Source: Spirochaetota bacterium (GTDB taxonomy: Bacteria; Spirochaetota; UBA4802; UBA5550). Taken from it: a stretch of DNA of 46,997 bases. A program made the position numbers and the translations under genes. The stretch lies in contig QKCL01000055.1 in the NCBI GenBank assembly GCA_003246895.1, positions 1 through 46,997 of the forward strand. The letters run 5' to 3'. Shown piece by piece: positions 1,631 to 18,553 of this stretch. The notes under the pieces were generated by a model. The model had not been told where the DNA came from and ran no database searches. It saw nothing but the letters and a program-made list of their open reading frames with translations. The first letter of the stretch is position 1. Every line of letters begins with the position of its first letter.

Positions 1631-1849
1631 CCTGTATTGATCCTCCATGACACGGAGGTGAGAGGGAATCCCGTTAGAATCGGGAGCGGACCCACCACTG
1701 TAACCGGGGACGAAAACTGAAAGATGCCACTGTATTTTATACGGGAAGGCTCAGTTAGTAGAATGATCCGGGAGCCAGAATACCTGTCAATATGGATGAG
1801 CGCAATGCCCGGGGAAAAGGGAGTGTTTTCGAGGATATAGATGGGAGAT
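1631..1849 (+). promoter_or_regulatory. Cobalamin (B12) riboswitch, copy 1
   Basis: The stretch holds the conserved parts of the adenosylcobalamin riboswitch in order: P2/P3 region with GGAGGTGAGAGGGAATC, the block GGGAGCGGACCCACCACTG at about 1681, TAACCGGGGACGAAAACTG, the GGAAGGCTCAG region at about 1744, and a B12-box variant GCCAGAATACCTG at 1774-1786. A TTGACA hexamer lies at 1577-1582 upstream, though no good -10 follows at 17 bp. A strong intrinsic terminator follows at 1850. No open reading frame follows the terminator before copy 2 starts, so this is an orphan switch as it stands. In the family, B12 binding normally promotes termination or blocks translation. Confidence 0.93.
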
Positions 1850-1882
1850 CCCCGGAGCTGTAAAGGTTTCGGGGTTTTTTTT
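1850..1882 (+). terminator. Intrinsic terminator of riboswitch copy 1
   Basis: Ten paired bases with G-U wobbles (CCCCGGAGCT with GGTTTCGGGG) close a GTAAA loop and are followed directly by eight T residues. Confidence 0.88.
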
Positions 1883-1885
1883 ATC

Positions 1886-1914
1886 TATAGACTGTTTGAT
1901 CTTTAAAATATAAT
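1886..1914 (+). promoter_or_regulatory. Possible promoter of riboswitch copy 2
   Basis: A perfect TATAAT lies at 1909-1914, 17 bp after a weak -35 (TATAGA, 1886-1891) and just before riboswitch copy 2. It sits after the terminator of copy 1. If it works, copy 2 is transcribed separately rather than in series with copy 1. The AT-rich context makes a chance match possible. Confidence 0.4.
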
Positions 1915-1921
1915 ATTTTAT

Positions 1922-2110
1922 GTGCTGATCCTCCATGACACGGAGGTGAGAGGGAATCTCGTTAGAATCGGGAGCGGACCCACCGCTGTAACCGGGGACG
2001 AAAACTGAAAGATGCCACTGTATTTGATGCGGGAAGGCTCAGTTGGTAGAATGATCCGGAAGCCAGAAGACCTGTCGGTGCTGTGATGACTTTTTTTATC
2101 GTGGATAATA
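1922..2110 (+). promoter_or_regulatory. Cobalamin (B12) riboswitch, copy 2
   Basis: This is a near-identical repeat of copy 1, displaced by 288 bp. It has the same GGAGGTGAGAGGGAATC, GGGAGCGGACCCACCGCTG and TAACCGGGGACGAAAACTG blocks, and a more canonical B12 box GCCAGAAGACCTG at 2062-2074. About ten substitutions separate the cores of the two copies, so the duplication looks recent. Its own terminator follows at 2116. No intact gene lies downstream on this strand until 2851, about 700 bp further on. Confidence 0.93.
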
Positions 2111-2115
2111 CTGGG

Positions 2116-2150
2116 AATCCCCGAAGCCGGAAAGGTTTCGGGGATTTTTT
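2116..2150 (+). terminator. Intrinsic terminator of riboswitch copy 2
   Basis: A 13-bp stem with one G-U pair (AATCCCCGAAGCC with GGTTTCGGGGATT) encloses a GGAAA loop and runs into a T tract (TTTTTTATTTTTTT). The sequence is related to the terminator of copy 1, so the whole aptamer-terminator unit was duplicated. Confidence 0.9.
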
Positions 2151-2850: not shown

Positions 2851-3747
2851 ATGAAAACTGCGGATGAAAAAATACTCGTACTGCCTGACAGGTTCAGGGA
2901 CCCCTTCCTTTTTGAAGGAATTATTTCAATGGGGGGAGAATTTCAAAGAACAGGAATCACCTTTGATCTGTCAAGGGTAGGTTTCATGGAGCCGTACTCC
3001 ATGGTATCTTTTCTTCTGCTGGGAAGGAACTATCTAAGAGAGTCCGGGGAAAAGATAAAACTGGTGAATATACCGGTTAAACTTCATCAGTATCTGGCAA
3101 GAATGGATTTTTTTGAGAAGGATATTTTTGAAGTACCCGAAATTCTGAACGAGAAACTGTTTCTGAAGAGAACGGCTGAAAGCCGGAGGCTCATAGAGAT
3201 AAAGGAGATTCCAAATAAGGAAAAGAAGAGCATAAAGGTTATCGCTTCAGTTATAGCCCTTTTCAGGAAAAGAGCTTCTCTTATTCTGAAGTACTGGATG
3301 AGCGAATCTGTAGTTGATTATTTTGTCACAGTAATATCTGAACTCTGCCAGAATATCTTTGAACACAGTCTTGATTCGGGATATCTGGCCATACAGACAT
3401 ATAATACTGGAAGAGAAAATATAGCAAGACTTGTAATATCCGATTCGGGGATAGGAATCAGAAAGAGCTTTGAGAATAAAGAGAATATGAGTTTTGAAAC
3501 AACCTCCGAGCTCATGGAAATGGCTTTGACAATGCCTATTTCAAGCAAGAGGCCCTATGGATATGGTCTCTGCCAGGTGAGTACAATTGTGGAAAGGCTC
3601 AAGGGCGGAATATACATGCGGTCGGGAGATGCATCTCTTACTGTTCTGTATAACAAAAAAGAAAGAGGGGCCAGTTATATTTTTCATAAAAACGGTCTTG
3701 AATATTTCAGTGGAACACAGATTTCCATTACACTATCATCAAAGTAG
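2851..3747 (+). CDS. STAS-like domain fused to a HATPase_c (anti-sigma/histidine-kinase-like) domain
   Basis: The 298-residue protein has an N-terminal STAS-like fold (about residues 1-90). A linker follows, then a GHKL ATPase domain. Its N-box is at about residue 164 (ELCQNIFEHS), G1 box at about 197 (ISDSGIGI) and G2 box at about 237 (YGYGL). No phospho-accepting His/DHp region is seen, so it resembles the RsbT/SpoIIAB class rather than a true histidine kinase. Such proteins phosphorylate or bind STAS antagonists. It is the first gene of a tight five-gene operon (2851-6700) and is followed 7 bp later by a STAS-like protein, its likely partner by inference. The start ATG has a weak AAAGAG site. 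Confidence 0.8.
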   Translation: MKTADEKILVLPDRFRDPFLFEGIISMGGEFQRTGITFDLSRVGFMEPYSMVSFLLLGRNYLRESGEKIKLVNIPVKLHQYLARMDFFEKDIFEVPEILNEKLFLKRTAESRRLIEIKEIPNKEKKSIKVIASVIALFRKRASLILKYWMSESVVDYFVTVISELCQNIFEHSLDSGYLAIQTYNTGRENIARLVISDSGIGIRKSFENKENMSFETTSELMEMALTMPISSKRPYGYGLCQVSTIVERLKGGIYMRSGDASLTVLYNKKERGASYIFHKNGLEYFSGTQISITLSSK

Positions 3748-7451: not shown

Positions 7452-7682
7452 AGTTATAGCACCTGAAATTAAGGAAATTGTTGAAATATATTATATATTT
7501 CGGCAGATAATTGCACTATTGTTAGCAGAGAAAGTAAATTTATAAAAAAATATTACAGTACACATCTGAATGACTAGTTGTAATAATTGAAACATTAAGT
7601 GATGTGGAGATTTTTTATTCAGTATTTGTGTTTTTTTGCCGGGGTGAGACAAATGAGAATATTTTTTCCAGTTATTATAAAA
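7452..7682. other. Gene-free spacer between SPOR gene start and DASS terminator
   Basis: The stretch is AT-rich with no plausible reading frame. It must carry the promoter of the SPOR gene on the minus strand, but I cannot pick one hexamer pair with confidence. Confidence 0.5.
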
Positions 7683-7710
7683 TCCGGGGTATGCTTCTGC
7701 ATACCCCGGA
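7683..7710 (-). terminator. Terminator of DASS transporter gene 1
   Basis: TCCGGGGTATGC and GCATACCCCGGA form a perfect 12-bp stem around TTCT. On the minus strand it runs into TTTTATAATAA, 48 bp after the transporter stop codon. Confidence 0.9.
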
Positions 7711-7758
7711 CATGTTTAAATACAATTTAGAGAATTAGTTCTCAACTCTGTATAAATC

Positions 7759-9237
7759 TTAGAACTTCCAGATAAGAGGCACAATTACGATTACAAGAAC
7801 CATTGTAAGTAACTGTGGGAACCATCCAGCTTTGATATAGTCCATGAAAGAAAGTTTTCCAGGACCAAGTACTATTGTGTTTGGAGGTGTGGCAATTGGA
7901 GTCATGAAACAAAGAGACGCAGCCATTGCACATCCCATAACTATAGGAGCAGGGTTAATTCCAAGTCCCTGAGCAGATGCAATACCTATAGGAGCAACGA
8001 TCAGAGTAGTTGCAGTGTTAGATGCAAACTGAGTTAGTGTTGCTGTAATAAGAATTACACCGATAAGAAGTCCGATAGGAGAACCAGCAACAAGGCTGTT
8101 CATTCCTTCTGCTATCATTCCAACAGCACCTGTTTTATCAAGAGCAGATGATGCAGGGAACATACATGCAAAAAGGAAAATTGTTGTCCATGATACAGAG
8201 TCAGTTGCTTCTTTCCATGTGATGATTTTTGTTGCAATAACAAGAGTTGCACCAAGAGCAGCAGCAACAAGAAGGTTGATATGAAGAGTCTTTCCAATGA
8301 AAGGAACATATTTACCAGCAGCCATTACAAAGATAACTATTGCGAAAAGAATTACAGCAAGAGGCATTTTGTTTGTTCTGAACTTGAAGTTATCATCGAG
8401 TTTTGGTCCTTCATAGTCATCCCCTGAAGTATCAATTGTACCTTGAGGAAGGAATCTTAGGCCAAATGTCATGAAAGCTATAGTAGCAATAATTGCTATT
8501 GGCGCACCAATATAGGCGAATTCAAAGAATCCGAAACCTGGAACACCAGCTTTTTCCATAACACCATTAGCAACACCGTTTGGAGGAGTACCGATAAGAG
8601 TCATAGTACCACCGAATGATGCAGCATAGGCCATGGCCATCATGAACTGTTTTGTTGAGAATCCGGCTTTTCCGATTACAGCAAGAACGATTGGAAGGAA
8701 ACATACAACCGCACCTGTGTTAGAAAGGAATGCAGAAAGAAGAGCAATAGTTCCCATGATGAAAAGGAGTACTTTCTTCTCATTTCCGCCGCCTTTTTCA
8801 ACTGCCCATTTACCAACTTTGTCAGCAAATCCTGTTCTGAATAGAGCCTCTCCCATCATGAACATGAAAAGGAATATCAGTGTCCATTGGTTGGCAAAGT
8901 CTTTAAATGCTACTGCCGGCTTTAGTATACCAAGAAGTACAAACATTGCAGTAGCGACCAGAGGAATGATCTCAGTAAGGAAAAGAACAAACGCAACACC
9001 AATAATAGCTATTGACATGTAAGCCTTTTTCTTATCGACCTTCTTGGCAGCTGGAGCCTCAGCTTTCTTTGGCTCTACCTTTTTCTCTTCGACTTTTGTA
9101 GCATCTTTCTTTGCTACGACTTTTTTTGCATCTTCAGCTGCATAAGCTTTTGTTGAAAAACTGTCCACTGAAGTGATAGTGGCCATGCCACCGAATGCTA
9201 AAAACAGAGTGAGAAATAAAATCCCAAACTTTTTCAT
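7759..9237 (-). CDS. DASS/SLC13-family dicarboxylate:Na+ symporter with signal peptide and Lys-rich linker
   Basis: The 492-residue carrier has two SNT motifs typical of the divalent anion:Na+ symporter family (AFLSNTGAVVCFLP and FASNTATTLIVAPIG). It also has TLIGTPPNGV and a matching TPPNTIVLGPG in the second half, the usual inverted repeat. Likely substrates are succinate and related dicarboxylates, because it lies next to the succinate-to-propionate operon. Unusual for the family, residues 1-33 form a cleavable-looking signal peptide ending in KAYA. A linker of about 40 residues, rich in Lys, Ala and Glu, follows before the first membrane helix at about residue 75. The start has a strong AGGAGG. 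A paralogue lies at 21495. Confidence 0.88.
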   Translation of the reverse strand: MKKFGILFLTLFLAFGGMATITSVDSFSTKAYAAEDAKKVVAKKDATKVEEKKVEPKKAEAPAAKKVDKKKAYMSIAIIGVAFVLFLTEIIPLVATAMFVLLGILKPAVAFKDFANQWTLIFLFMFMMGEALFRTGFADKVGKWAVEKGGGNEKKVLLFIMGTIALLSAFLSNTGAVVCFLPIVLAVIGKAGFSTKQFMMAMAYAASFGGTMTLIGTPPNGVANGVMEKAGVPGFGFFEFAYIGAPIAIIATIAFMTFGLRFLPQGTIDTSGDDYEGPKLDDNFKFRTNKMPLAVILFAIVIFVMAAGKYVPFIGKTLHINLLVAAALGATLVIATKIITWKEATDSVSWTTIFLFACMFPASSALDKTGAVGMIAEGMNSLVAGSPIGLLIGVILITATLTQFASNTATTLIVAPIGIASAQGLGINPAPIVMGCAMAASLCFMTPIATPPNTIVLGPGKLSFMDYIKAGWFPQLLTMVLVIVIVPLIWKF

Positions 9238-9708: not shown

Positions 9709-10875
9709 TTACCCAAAAAGGGAAAGTAGTACACCAGCAGAAACGGCTGAACCGATAACACCGGCAACGTTTGGTCCCATTGCATGCATGAGCAGGAAGT
9801 TTGCTGGATTTGATTTCTGACCAACAACCTGAGATACCCTTGCTGCCATTGGAACAGCAGATACTCCCGCAGAACCGATAAGTGGGTTAATTGGGTTTTT
9901 AAGGAATATGTTCATTACTTTTGCAAGAAGAACACCTGCGCCAGTACCTATACCGAACGCTACAACACCAAGTGCAAGAATAGCAAGTGTCTTAACGTTA
10001 AGGAAAGCAGTACCTGTTGCAGTAGCACCAACAGAAACACCGAGGAAAATAGTGACGATGTTTATAAGTGCATTCTGTGATGTTTCTGAAAGACGTCCTG
10101 TACATCCGCACTCTCTGAAAAGGTTACCAAGCATAAGCATACCGATCAGAGGAGCAGCAGCAGGAATAATTAAGCTTACTATGATTGTTACAACTATAGG
10201 GAATATTATTTTCTCAGTCTGAGAAACCGACCTTAGCTGTTTCATAACAATTTTTCTTTCATGATCAGTAGTAAGAGCCTTCATTATTGGCGGCTGGATA
10301 ATAGGAACAAGCGCCATGTATGAATAAGCTGCTACAGCAATTGGCCCCAGAAGATGTGAAGCCAGTTTTGATGAAAGGTAAATCGCAGTAGGACCATCAG
10401 CACCGCCGATGATACCGATAGATGCAGCTTCCTGAGCTGTAAAAAGTCCAGACATGATCGCACCCATGAAAGTTACGAAAATACCGAACTGTGCAGCTGC
10501 ACCAAGAAGCAGAGATTTTGGATTAGCAATTAGTGGTCCAAAGTCTGTCATCGCACCAACACCCATGAAAATGAGTGGAGGGAATATACCGAGGTGGTCA
10601 CCCAGGAAAAGATATCCAAGAAGTCCGCCTGGTTCAACTGTCTCAATAACACCTGCCGCAACATCTATATGCAGGTGAGGATGAGCCATGAGGTTTGCGA
10701 ATGGAAGGTTAGTTAATAACATACCAAAAGCAATAGGTACCAGCAGAAGGGGCTCAAAGCCTTTCTTGATAGCCAAGAAGAAAAGGATAAGCGAAACACA
10801 GATCATTACCATCTGCTGCCATCCAAGGCCATAGAAACCGGTACTTTGTAAAAAGTTCATTAAAGCCGTATTCAT
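9709..10875 (-). CDS. mmdB: Na+-translocating methylmalonyl-CoA decarboxylase, beta subunit
   Basis: This is the integral membrane Na+ channel subunit of the biotin-dependent decarboxylase family (OadB/MmdB/GcdB). It couples decarboxylation of carboxybiotin to Na+ export. The 388-residue chain has about ten hydrophobic segments. It carries the family hallmarks [31 protein letters not shown] and [14 protein letters not shown] with [19 protein letters not shown]. Its length fits the family. It is the last gene of the operon, 28 bp after the biotin carrier gene. Methylmalonyl-CoA rather than oxaloacetate is inferred as substrate because mutase and epimerase genes share the operon. Confidence 0.93.
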
Positions 10876-13703: not shown

Positions 13704-14645
13704 CTAGCTTAAATTTAATTTTCCTAATATCAAATCTGTTGCCGTATAAGGATCTGACTCCTTAGCAACAATTTTTTGCGCCAGTTCTTCGAACATACCA
13801 CCATTAGTTGTTTTTTCGAGCAACACCCTGGTCATTCTGTCCTTAACGAGATTCATGAGAGAATTCTTTCTATTCTCAACTCTTCTCTTGAATCCGTTAC
13901 CGCTTTCGAGCATATATTCTTTATGTTTGGCAATAGATTCCAGAACTCCCTCTATGCCTTCATTATTAGCCGCAATAGTCATATCAACAGGCGGAATCCA
14001 GCTTCTGTCTTCCTTCAGTTCAAGCATCATTGCAATTTCATTCTTTGTTTTAATTGCGCCATCCCTGTCTGCTTTATTTATTACAAAAACATCTCCAATT
14101 TCCATTACACCGGCTTTAATAGCCTGAATGTCATCACCTAACCCAGGCACGGAGACGAGTACTGTAGTGTCACACGCCTTTACTATATCCACTTCTGATT
14201 GGCCAACACCAACCGTTTCAATGAAAATATAATCGCAACCGAATATATCGAGAATATCGACGGCAGCTCCTGTTGCTTCCGAAATACCGCCAAGATGACC
14301 CCTGGCTCCCATCGAGCGTATGAATACTCCATCATCAGTATTAAGGTCACTCATTCTAACTCTGTCTCCCAGGATAGCCCCTCCTGTAAAAGGGCTGGTT
14401 GGGTCAATTGCAATAACCCCCACTGAGGCGCCGGTTTTCCTGACTGACTTGACAAGCTTGTCGGTCAGGGTACTTTTCCCGGCCCCTGGAGGGCCGGTAA
14501 TGCCTATGATATAAGCATTACCGGTATTTTTATATAGATCTTTTAAAAGAATCTGATCTACATCTTCATTGTTTTCAACTATGGATATAAGACGGGCAGC
14601 TGCCCTTTTTTCACCGTTAAGAAGTCTTTCCTTCAGGTTATCCAT
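13704..14645 (-). CDS. meaB: MeaB/ArgK-family GTPase, methylmalonyl-CoA mutase chaperone
   Basis: The 313-residue G protein protects the mutase from inactivation and gates cofactor exchange. It has the P-loop GPPGAGKSTL at about residue 52, AIDPTSPFTGGAILGDRVRM, IRSMGARGHLGG, the switch ETVGVGQSEVDI and the guanine-binding NKAD near residue 191. Length is within the family range. It lies directly after the cobalamin-binding mutase subunit gene. Its C-terminus lacks the RRR...W block of the meaB remnant at 2338, so the two are different subgroups rather than recent copies. Confidence 0.93.
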   Translation of the reverse strand: MDNLKERLLNGEKRAAARLISIVENNEDVDQILLKDLYKNTGNAYIIGITGPPGAGKSTLTDKLVKSVRKTGASVGVIAIDPTSPFTGGAILGDRVRMSDLNTDDGVFIRSMGARGHLGGISEATGAAVDILDIFGCDYIFIETVGVGQSEVDIVKACDTTVLVSVPGLGDDIQAIKAGVMEIGDVFVINKADRDGAIKTKNEIAMMLELKEDRSWIPPVDMTIAANNEGIEGVLESIAKHKEYMLESGNGFKRRVENRKNSLMNLVKDRMTRVLLEKTTNGGMFEELAQKIVAKESDPYTATDLILGKLNLS

Positions 14646-14660
14646 AATCTTAAACCCCTG

Positions 14661-15056
14661 TTATTTTTTTACGTTAGCTTTAATAAAGTCTATTGTTACA
14701 GTTGTAGGTGTACCTGGAGTAAATACTTCAGCACATCCTTTTTCTTTAAGGTATGGGATATCATCCGCAGGAATAACTCCACCACCTATGAAAAGAATGT
14801 CATCTCCACCTTTTTCTTTAAGCAGTTCTTTAACTCTAGGAAGCAGTGTGCTGTGTGCTCCTGAAAGGATACTGCAAGCAACGCAATCAACGTCTTCCTG
14901 GATTGCTGCGTTTGCTATCTGCTCTGGAGTCTGACGAAGACCAGTATAGATAACTTCCATACCTGCGTCTCTTAAAGCTCTAGCTACAACTTTAGCTCCT
15001 CTATCGTGACCGTCAAGTCCAGGTTTTGCTACCAAAACTCTTATAGGTTTACTCAT
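14661..15056 (-). CDS. mcmB: Methylmalonyl-CoA mutase, small cobalamin-binding subunit
   Basis: The 131-residue protein is a free-standing B12-binding domain. It carries the base-off DxHxxG motif in [16 protein letters not shown] (His is the lower cobalt ligand, with the partner Lys and Asp in place). [17 protein letters not shown] and EVFTPGTP are also typical. It pairs with the large subunit encoded next to it to form a split mutase. Start codon follows GGAGG-like bases (AGGAGGATTTGAA). Confidence 0.95.
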
Positions 15057-15118
15057 TTCAAATCCTCCTGGAATCCTTATCTTATAAATTTACAGTTTGC
15101 TGATATTCGCCGAAAACT

Positions 15119-16726
15119 TTAAGTTTTAACAGCAGCAAGAATATAAGGCATAACGTTTTCGTCGCCTTCACAAGCTTTCTTAAGTGCAGCAAGAGCGGCA
15201 TCAGTAGCAGCCTGATCTCTACTAGCTCTAACGCCCTGAGTCTTCTTCTTCATAGATTCTCCAACAGAAGGATCAACTTTAAGAAGGTCTTTTGGTGGCT
15301 GCTCTTCAATCTGGAATTTGTTCATACCAACGATAACAGTTTTTCCAGCTTCAATATCTTTCTGATAGTTGTAAGCTGAATCCATGATTTCCTGCTGGAT
15401 GTAACCTTTTTCGATAGCAGCAACAGCTCCGCCAAGATCATCAATTTTCTTGATGTATTCCATAGCTTTTGCTTCAATTTCGTTAGTTTTGGCTTCAACA
15501 AAGTAAGAACCGGCAAGTGGGTCGATTGAGTTAGTTACACCACTTTCATAAGCAACGATCTGCTGAGTTCTAAGAGCTACCCTTACTGAATCTTCTGTTG
15601 GAAGAGCAAGAGCTTCGTCTTTAGAGTTTGTGTGTAGAGACTGAGTTCCACCCATTACAGCAGCAAGTGTCTGAATAGCAACCCTTACGATGTTGTTTTC
15701 AGGCTGCTGAGCAGTAAGTGTTGATCCACCTGTTTGTGTGTGGAATTTAAGAGACCATGATTTAGATTTTTTAGCTTTAAATCTGTCTTTCATGATTTTT
15801 GCCCAAAGTCTTCTTGCAGCTCTGTATTTTGCAACTTCTTCAAGAAGGTCATTGTGAGCGTTAAAGAAGAAAGAAAGTCTTGATGCGAAACTGTCTACGT
15901 CAAGACCAGCTTTGATAGCTGCATCAACGTAAGCGATACCGTCTGCAAGTGTAAAACCAACTTCCTGAGCAGCTGTAGAACCAGCTTCCCTGATGTGGTA
16001 TCCTGAAATACTGATAGTATTCCACTGTGGAACTTCTTTTGAACAGTATTCGAAAATGTTAGTGATAAGTCTGATTGACGCTGCAGGAGGGAAAATGTAT
16101 GTTCCCCTTGCGATGTACTCTTTAAGAACGTCATTCTGAATTGTTCCTCTCAGCTTGTCAGCAGTTGTTCCCTGCTTTTCAGCAACAGCTATATACATAG
16201 CGAGAAGAACAGATGCAGGAGCGTTGATTGTCATTGATGTACTTACTTCACCAAGGTCAATTCCTCCGAAAAGGATTTCCATGTCAGCAAGTGAGTCAAT
16301 AGCAACACCAACTTTTCCTACTTCTCCTTCTGATAGAGAATCATCTGAGTCATATCCAATCTGAGTTGGAAGGTCCATAGCAACAGAAAGTCCCATTGAA
16401 CCGTTTGCGATAAGATACTTGTATCTTTCGTTAGATGCTTCAGCTGTAGCGAAACCAGCGTACATCCTCATTGTCCAGAATCTACCTCTGTACATTGTAT
16501 CCTGAACACCCCTTGTGAATGGGTATTCGCCAGGAAATCCAATTTCTTCAGCATAGTTAGTGTTCTGAACATCCAGTGGAGTATAAAGTCTTTTGACATC
16601 TTCTCCGGAACCAGTAACGAATTTTGCAAGTCTCTCAGGTCTTTTTGCAAGGCCTGCAGCGACTTGTGCATCGTACTCGTCACTTTTAGCTTTAATCTCT
16701 TTGAGTGTTTCCTCGTTGAACATCAT
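15119..16726 (-). CDS. mcmA: Methylmalonyl-CoA mutase, large catalytic subunit
   Basis: The 535-residue TIM-barrel subunit converts succinyl-CoA and (R)-methylmalonyl-CoA by a radical B12 mechanism. It shows [80 protein letters not shown] and [10 protein letters not shown]. These fit methylmalonyl-CoA mutases rather than isobutyryl-CoA mutases, though exact substrate is inferred from the operon. It lacks the B12 domain, which the next gene supplies. Two adjacent ATGs exist (16726, 16723), preceded by AAGGGGGAA. Confidence 0.94.
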
Positions 16727-16773
16727 ATGTGTTCCCCCTTTATAATCTTGAAAATTATAATCTGCTAAACTTT

Positions 16774-18276
16774 TTATTTAAGTTTCATGCTGCCTGTTTT
16801 GTTAAATCTGTCATGCCATGATAGCGCCTCAGAAATAAGATGAGGTGTGTGCTGATTAGGCTGCTCCTTCTGAGCTCTGTCGAAATATTCCTGAAGCATA
16901 GGTCTGTAATCCGGATGAGCACAGTTCTCAATAATTTTCTTGGCTCTTTGTTTTGGATTTGTACCTCGACAGTCAGCAAGTCCCTGCTCAGTTACGATTA
17001 TCATTACTTCGTGTTCTGTATGGTCATGGTGAGAAACCATAGGAACGATTGAAGAGATATCGCCATTCTTAGCAGTTGAAACAGTTGTAAAGAATGTCAT
17101 GTAACCGTTTCTTGTAAAGTCTCCTGAACCACCAAGACCGTTCATAAGACGAGTTCCCATAATGTGTGTAGAGTTAACGTTTGCGTAAAGGTCAACTTCG
17201 ATAGCAGTATTCATTGTAAGAACACCGAGTCTTCTGGCCATTTCAGGGTTATTGCTTATTTCCTGTGGACGAATAATAACTTTATCCTTGTAGAAATCTA
17301 TGTTGTCATAGAATCTCTTAACACCGTCAGGGCTCAGAGTAACAGATGTACAGGAACATGTCTTGATTTTACCTGAATCGATAAGGTCAAGCATTGAATC
17401 CTGAAGTACTTCAGTAAAAGATGTAAGATTTTCGAATCTGGAACCGTTAATACCGGCAAGAACAGCGTTAGCAACACTACCAACACCTGACTGAAGCGGA
17501 AGAAGGTTTTCAGGAAGTCTTCCAGCCTTGACTTCGCTCTCAAGGAAATCTATAAGGTGTCCTGAAATCTTTTTGGAATCCTCATCAATATCTCCAAGTG
17601 GACGGCAGTCATCCGGAATATCACACATTACAATCGCAACAATTTTTGATGGATCACATGGAATGTATGGAGTTCCGATTCTGTCATCTGATTTTTCAAT
17701 TGGAATTACTTTTCTGTTTGGCGGATTTAGAGGAGAATAGATATCGTGCATTCCCTCCAGTGCAAGTGGCTGTGTAGTATTTACTTCGATAATTACCTTT
17801 TCAGCCATTTCAACATAAACATTTGAGTTACCAGCTGAAGTTGAAGGTATGATTCCTCCGTCTTCTGTTATAGCTACAGCCTCGATTATGGCTACATCTA
17901 TTTTACCCCAGAAACCTTCACGAACCTGCTGACCGGACTGGCTTAAGTGAACATCCTGATACTTAACATCACCGCTGTTGATAAGATTTCTCAAATCTCC
18001 GTTAGTTTGATATGGCATCCTCATGTTAATAATGCCGGCCTTTGCCCATGCACCATCAAGTTCCTTTCCAACTGATGCACCTGTGTAAAGATTAAGTCTG
18101 ATTTGCTCCCCTGCTTCAGCTCTTTTAGCCACAGCCAGAGGTACACATTTTGGATAACCAGCTGGAGTAAAACCACTTGTTCCAACAGTCATTCCGTCTT
18201 TGATGTAAGCAGCAGCTTCTTCAGCAGAAACTACTTTGCTCAATAGAGCCTGATTACGAATACGTTCTTTAGACAT
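16774..18276 (-). CDS. Acetyl-CoA hydrolase/transferase family: succinate (propionyl-CoA:succinate) CoA-transferase
   Basis: The 500-residue protein belongs to the Ach1/Cat1/AarC class. It shows [14 protein letters not shown] near the N-terminus, [14 protein letters not shown]-type sequence ([18 protein letters not shown]) and the glycine-rich loop [14 protein letters not shown]. It also has [18 protein letters not shown], all typical. It would move CoA from propionyl-CoA to succinate, closing the cycle at no ATP cost. Acetate as acceptor cannot be ruled out from sequence. An upstream extension of the frame exists, but the ATG at 18276 has AGGAGG at 9 bp and fits the family start. It is the first gene of the nine-gene operon. 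Confidence 0.9.
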
Positions 18277-18553
18277 ATAAAACTCACCTCCTGAATCTCT
18301 ATTCATTTTTTTTAATAGATACAGGGTCGTTCCGGATTTTTTCCACTTAAATATGTACTTAAAAAATCCGTCCCGATCCCAGGGATCGCTAGCAAAACCC
18401 AATGGGCATAAAAAAAGTTGATCCACATATCTCGAATCTCTATTATATGTTCATAACAGATCAAGACAGTAAATCAACTTTCATTTTTTTTGCAAGGGTT
18501 CGGATAAAGGGCCGCTTCATCCACCAGGCAAAACCGTCATTCACTAAAAATAT
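18277..18553 (-). promoter_or_regulatory. Leader/promoter region of the succinate-to-propionate operon with inverted repeats
   Basis: There is no gene here. Three inverted repeats are visible: CGGATTTTTT/AAAAAATCCG (18333-18342 with 18361-18370), CGATCCC-A-GGGATCG near 18374-18388, and AAAGTTGAT/ATCAACTTT (18414-18422 with 18473-18481). The last is followed on the minus strand by a T run, so it could be a terminator or attenuator with a long loop. A TATAAT (minus strand, 18447-18442) lies inside that loop and may be the -10 of the operon. Which of these is used cannot be told by reading. Confidence 0.5.

Follow-up and report, generated by a model that had tools for sequence, protein, structure and literature searches.

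Two intact cobalamin riboswitches next to a meaB pseudogene in a Spirochaetota genome: most likely the orphaned leader of a lost gene

Introduction

Why would a genome carry two intact riboswitches in a row with no intact gene directly behind them? The question is raised by a locus at the end of a metagenome-assembled contig (QKCL01000055.1) of a Spirochaetota bacterium, 1.6 kb from the contig end in an assembly of 95 contigs. The window, which is the whole stretch of DNA analysed here, has a length of 46,997 nucleotides. A sequence-only reading of the window had noticed two near-identical B12 riboswitches, each with its own terminator and with no gene to control, and offered two explanations: either the decay is very recent, or the copies function as free RNAs acting in trans, as in ethanolamine regulation. 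The evidence presented below favors the former. With a probability of roughly 0.7, we consider the locus to be a sequential tandem transcriptional OFF switch with a deleted target and a third copy decaying beside it.

Results

Two full-length aptamers with their own terminators

An Rfam covariance-model search (cmscan), a check proposed by the sequence-only reading, identified exactly two cobalamin aptamers (RF00174) in the window. Both are on the plus strand and full length (model positions 1-189): copy 1 at 1621-1805 (100.5 bits, E = 4.2e-24) and copy 2 at 1909-2093 (102.4 bits, E = 1.3e-24), each exceeding the curated threshold of 31.5 bits over the whole aptamer. Copy 1 is followed by an intrinsic terminator at 1850-1882 on the same strand (a hairpin with a 10-bp stem at 1850-1874, then eight U) and copy 2 by another at 2113-2156 (a hairpin with a 16-bp stem at 2113-2149, with U tracts). 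Compared with shuffled sequences, the terminators fold with z scores of -4.5 (copy 1) and -4.6 (copy 2), none of 200 shuffles being equally good. Both copies had thus been placed and described correctly. The term “near-identical” holds for the aptamers, whose cores align without gaps over 151 nt (1638-1788 versus 1926-2076) at 95.4% identity, but not for the joining stretch before each terminator, which differs; the terminators themselves are 82.8% identical over 58 aligned positions.

Copy 1 has a U in its B12 box where a G is usual; damage was considered as an explanation and rejected, because the same U is present in another genome (G014). Sequestration of the 5' arm of the terminator by the aptamer motif CCGGGGA was also considered: this duplex ranks first in copy 1 as well as in four homologues, whereas in copy 2 and others it does not, and the antiterminator is therefore left unspecified. 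The TATAAT at 1909-1914 has no -35 element at the proper distance upstream, either on reading the sequence or in the promoter listing, so transcription probably reaches copy 2 only by reading through copy 1.

Related riboswitches in the genome and the order

The genome contains nine RF00174 matches, and the seven outside the stranded locus all precede genes: btuB-like receptor genes, a cbiK-like gene, an exbB/exbD/tonB-like set, a ferredoxin/cobN-like cluster and a cobalamin-synthesis operon (names given from reading translations, not from family searches). The expression platforms of copies 1 and 2 share the pattern GGGA-n-ATCCCCG...AAGGTTTCGGGG-U-run with riboswitches of this genome and of the order that stand before btuB-like or cobalamin-cluster genes. 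The terminators of the pair and of these cis-acting members are similarly spaced from the B12 box (42-70 nt) and share one terminator sequence family. A tree of 32 sites places copies 1 and 2 together with the riboswitch of this genome's ferredoxin cluster, with very short end branches, and the pair would therefore be explained most simply by duplication within its own lineage. Serial arrangements are also found elsewhere in the same order. In one genome (G028, contig C19), a cbiK-like gene is preceded by two consecutive cobalamin riboswitches with terminators, and another (G024, contig C22) has two that are ~370 nt apart.

The similarity of the copies, together with a metagenome-style assembly in which the locus lies so close to a contig end, could also indicate an assembly error, in which repeats were joined or collapsed and the true downstream gene is missing from the contig. 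The two copies do have an exact stretch of 40 nt in common; however, this is the longest such stretch, and their identity to the other riboswitches of the genome does not exceed about 80%. In addition, the pseudogene and the decayed third copy described below consist of unique sequence, which an assembler would not make up. We regard this explanation as improbable.

Several observations were made on the B12 loci themselves. In the genome of the window, two adjacent btuB-like genes (L030: 5250-7340 and 8118-10217) have almost identical riboswitch leaders (7663-7848 and 10537-10722), another recent local duplication. The B12 regulon of G024 is unusually dense, with 19 cobalamin riboswitch matches (contigs C22, C25, C41 and C96; L034, L035, L037 and L093), about ten of which are on one 65-kb contig. 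Several btuB-like genes also have a hairpin between the riboswitch terminator and the start codon, in which the apical TARCGGCAATTA is invariant while the stem varies but mostly pairs, and which is followed by a CTCTCCGGAGAGAGATAAA-like stretch. Its sites are L030:10204-10423, L030:7329-7548, L032:8221-8440, L032:7792-8011 and L035:7935-8154 on the minus strand and L037:11168-11387 on the plus strand. All of its four exact occurrences in the genome of the window are at B12 loci; it has no convincing match in Rfam and is absent behind the window pair. It is possibly an undescribed leader RNA element.

A third copy, a broken meaB and a lone hairpin

The absence of a gene to control, as originally claimed, holds for the DNA directly behind the pair, where there is no intact gene and no open reading frame of note starts between 2150 and 2338. 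Further downstream, a meaB pseudogene is followed by an intact operon on the same strand. This region also contains a perfect 17-bp hairpin with a weak U tract at 2186-2225 on the plus strand (-28.5 kcal/mol, z = -8.0, loop UUAAGU). It is the single strong hairpin past the second terminator, and no other copy was found in the genome at useful similarity, so it is not a repeated element there. It is probably the terminator of a lost gene, or a separator.

Two features beyond this hairpin had been overlooked in the sequence-only reading. The first is the decayed 5' part of a third cobalamin riboswitch on the plus strand, at 2289-2405. It is certain for 2289-2328, which is 87.5% identical to copy 1 over 40 nt (E = 3.9e-7), and weaker beyond, where a longer gapped alignment to ~2405 scores 39.5 against a maximum of 25.5 in 200 shuffles. 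Even at a permissive threshold, Rfam cmscan recognizes no third aptamer in 2150-2860, and copy 3 is therefore based on pairwise alignment only. The second, at 2404-2678 on the plus strand, is a pseudogene comprising the C-terminal third of a meaB-type GTPase gene, with one frameshift and with the N-terminal two thirds missing. With both frames read together, the remnant matches NF006958 (E = 3.7e-12, profile positions 240-329 of 333); it also matches PF03308 (E = 5.9e-5) and, weakly, MeaB/MMAA structures. The stretch 2289-2678 most plausibly represents a deletion junction that would have joined a riboswitch to the end of a gene.

MeaB serves as the chaperone of methylmalonyl-CoA mutase, a B12-dependent enzyme. 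The same window contains an intact meaB (13704-14645), but this gene is of another subtype and does not suggest itself as the source of the remnant: it fits TIGR00750 better, whereas the remnant fits NF006958 best, and there is no DNA match between them. It belongs to a minus-strand stretch (13704-18426) encoding MeaB, methylmalonyl-CoA mutase-like and acyl-CoA transferase-like proteins, that is, B12-dependent metabolism 11 kb from the stranded pair. Intact meaB genes of the same type as the remnant are found in two members of the family (G006 and G003), on contigs without a riboswitch match; thus, meaB need not be the original target.

The next intact genes are unlikely to be the target

The first intact gene downstream (2851-3747, plus strand) encodes a HATPase/STAS protein and starts a conserved five-gene signalling operon, likewise overlooked before, which continues with a STAS protein and three more genes and lies 700 nt past the second terminator. 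Comparison with relatives, another check that had been suggested, was informative for this operon, whereas the whole block of the stranded locus was not found in relatives by DNA search. Plasmid sequences matched it in two records only, over short stretches at the level of the aptamer, and thus gave no hint that the locus is of mobile origin. The operon is present in nine relatives, with differing upstream neighbours. When 20 HATPase/STAS loci were scanned with cmscan (two of them with less than the usual 1.5 kb upstream), no riboswitch was found near the gene in relatives, and the only matches were in the window's own genome. Because it is kept in relatives without any riboswitch upstream, the operon is probably not the ancestral target of the pair.

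The pair might nevertheless still act in cis on this operon if B12 control was gained by rearrangement and low B12 allowed read-through of both terminators across the pseudogene. Both are on the same strand with no intact gene between them, and no promoter-like plus-strand site is listed from 2490 to the gene start at 2851. Such read-through, however, would have to overcome the 17-bp hairpin and a terminator-like hairpin within the pseudogene (2536-2559, followed by seven T), and there is a promoter-like site at 2230-2258, past the pair and its terminators. With the operon conserved in relatives that have no riboswitch, we consider continued control in cis unlikely.

The two copies have remained structurally perfect

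The two copies differ at 13 of 160 aligned positions in their structured part, and 11 of these differences are transitions. All 40 canonical pairs are nevertheless intact in both copies, and one P1 pair is altered on both sides between them. When differences were placed at random, no pair was broken in 0.3-4% of trials (chance 0.003-0.04), depending on the share of transitions in the model. According to this pattern, structural selection acted on the copies during most of the period since they were duplicated, and the preserved cores weigh against a long-dead locus, which would not look maintained. With all pairs kept despite these differences, either the loss of the target is recent or some function is left in the pair; a recent deletion explains retention of the pair equally well.

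Discussion

We propose that the locus was the leader of a B12-regulated transcription unit, in which duplication within the lineage would have produced the pair. If the pair behaves like the cis-acting copies, binding of B12 should favor the terminator. In the working state, polymerase would have had to pass both terminators, and B12 on either aptamer would have stopped transcription; with two checkpoints in series, repression would be tighter and the response steeper. A deletion would then have removed the gene behind the second terminator, its own terminator hairpin probably being left at 2186-2225. The adjoining unit, headed by the third riboswitch, would also have been cut, in a deletion that fused the 5' part of this riboswitch to the last third of meaB. 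Today, the only products of the locus are probably short, terminated RNAs, roughly 230-270 nt long for copy 1 alone or 500-550 nt for the two copies together. None of the relatives compared, all of which are outside the genus, revealed the ancestral target, and its loss is what we therefore infer.

The suggestion of very recent decay has thus gained support from the decayed third copy fused to a broken meaB, from a downstream operon that has no riboswitch in relatives, and from two platforms equal to those of cis-acting copies in the same genome. The locus provides a clear snapshot of a riboswitch array outliving its gene, with two structurally perfect copies and one decaying beside a broken gene. 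Its main warning is that a regulated gene cannot be taken for granted wherever a riboswitch is intact. Should it turn out that the copies are maintained in the absence of a cis target, they would represent a second kind of trans-acting B12 RNA.

Three known systems invite comparison. The antisense-acting cobalamin riboswitch at pocR in Listeria (PMC9943018) resembles the window pair in not standing in front of a usual target. In contrast to it, the window pair is opposite no gene: the neighbouring gene, on the minus strand, has its start at 1432 and points away from the pair, there is no opposite-strand gene from 1433 to 2850, and the downstream genes are co-oriented with the pair.

EutX/Rli55 is an RNA with an AdoCbl riboswitch which, under B12 scarcity, sequesters the ANTAR regulator EutV (PMC5821096). 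Like the window pair, it combines an AdoCbl aptamer and a terminator without an obvious cis target. By the same logic, the copies here could be B12-sensing free RNAs acting in trans, for example with the hairpin at 2186-2225 sequestering a protein when B12 is scarce. In line with this idea, both copies are intact yet lack a target gene, a strong free hairpin lies past the second terminator, and the genome has genes for ethanolamine ammonia-lyase (eutBC). The eut genes, however, form a short permease-eutBC cluster on another contig (EutB on C1, E = 6.6e-219, with a eutC-like gene and the permease adjoining), which has no RF00174 match. ANTAR proteins gave no matches in the genome, and the search is valid because it was positive in 11 of 198 genomes of the phylum. 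A single strong hairpin was seen at 2186-2225, where EutX/Rli55 would have two of the ANTAR type, and its UUAAGU loop does not resemble an ANTAR site; the platforms are those of cis-acting copies with no added domain. The proposal of a free RNA as in ethanolamine regulation gained no support and is very improbable here; since eutBC is present, the link between B12 and ethanolamine is not completely closed. Nothing points to a trans mechanism of another type. A live B12-gated free RNA, which would end at terminator 1 or 2 with B12 and extend through the 17-bp hairpin without it, seems to us highly improbable; this hairpin would then be an output domain for a non-ANTAR protein or RNA partner.

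The closest counterparts of the proposed leader of a lost gene are tandem AdoCbl riboswitches with multiple expression platforms, listed as “pseudo-cooperative” (PMC9481103, Table 1). Like these, the window pair consists of two complete cobalamin riboswitches in series, two aptamers of the same class each with its own expression platform ending in an intrinsic terminator. The difference is that the window pair has no gene within 700 nt except the meaB pseudogene, and that its ligand response is predicted. Because there is no common regulated gene downstream, only this pseudogene and then the operon at 2851, we assign the pair as an orphaned remnant of a tandem system rather than a working one. 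It is most likely a further instance of a known tandem layout in an orphaned state, an ordinary leftover of deletion rather than a new free regulatory RNA.
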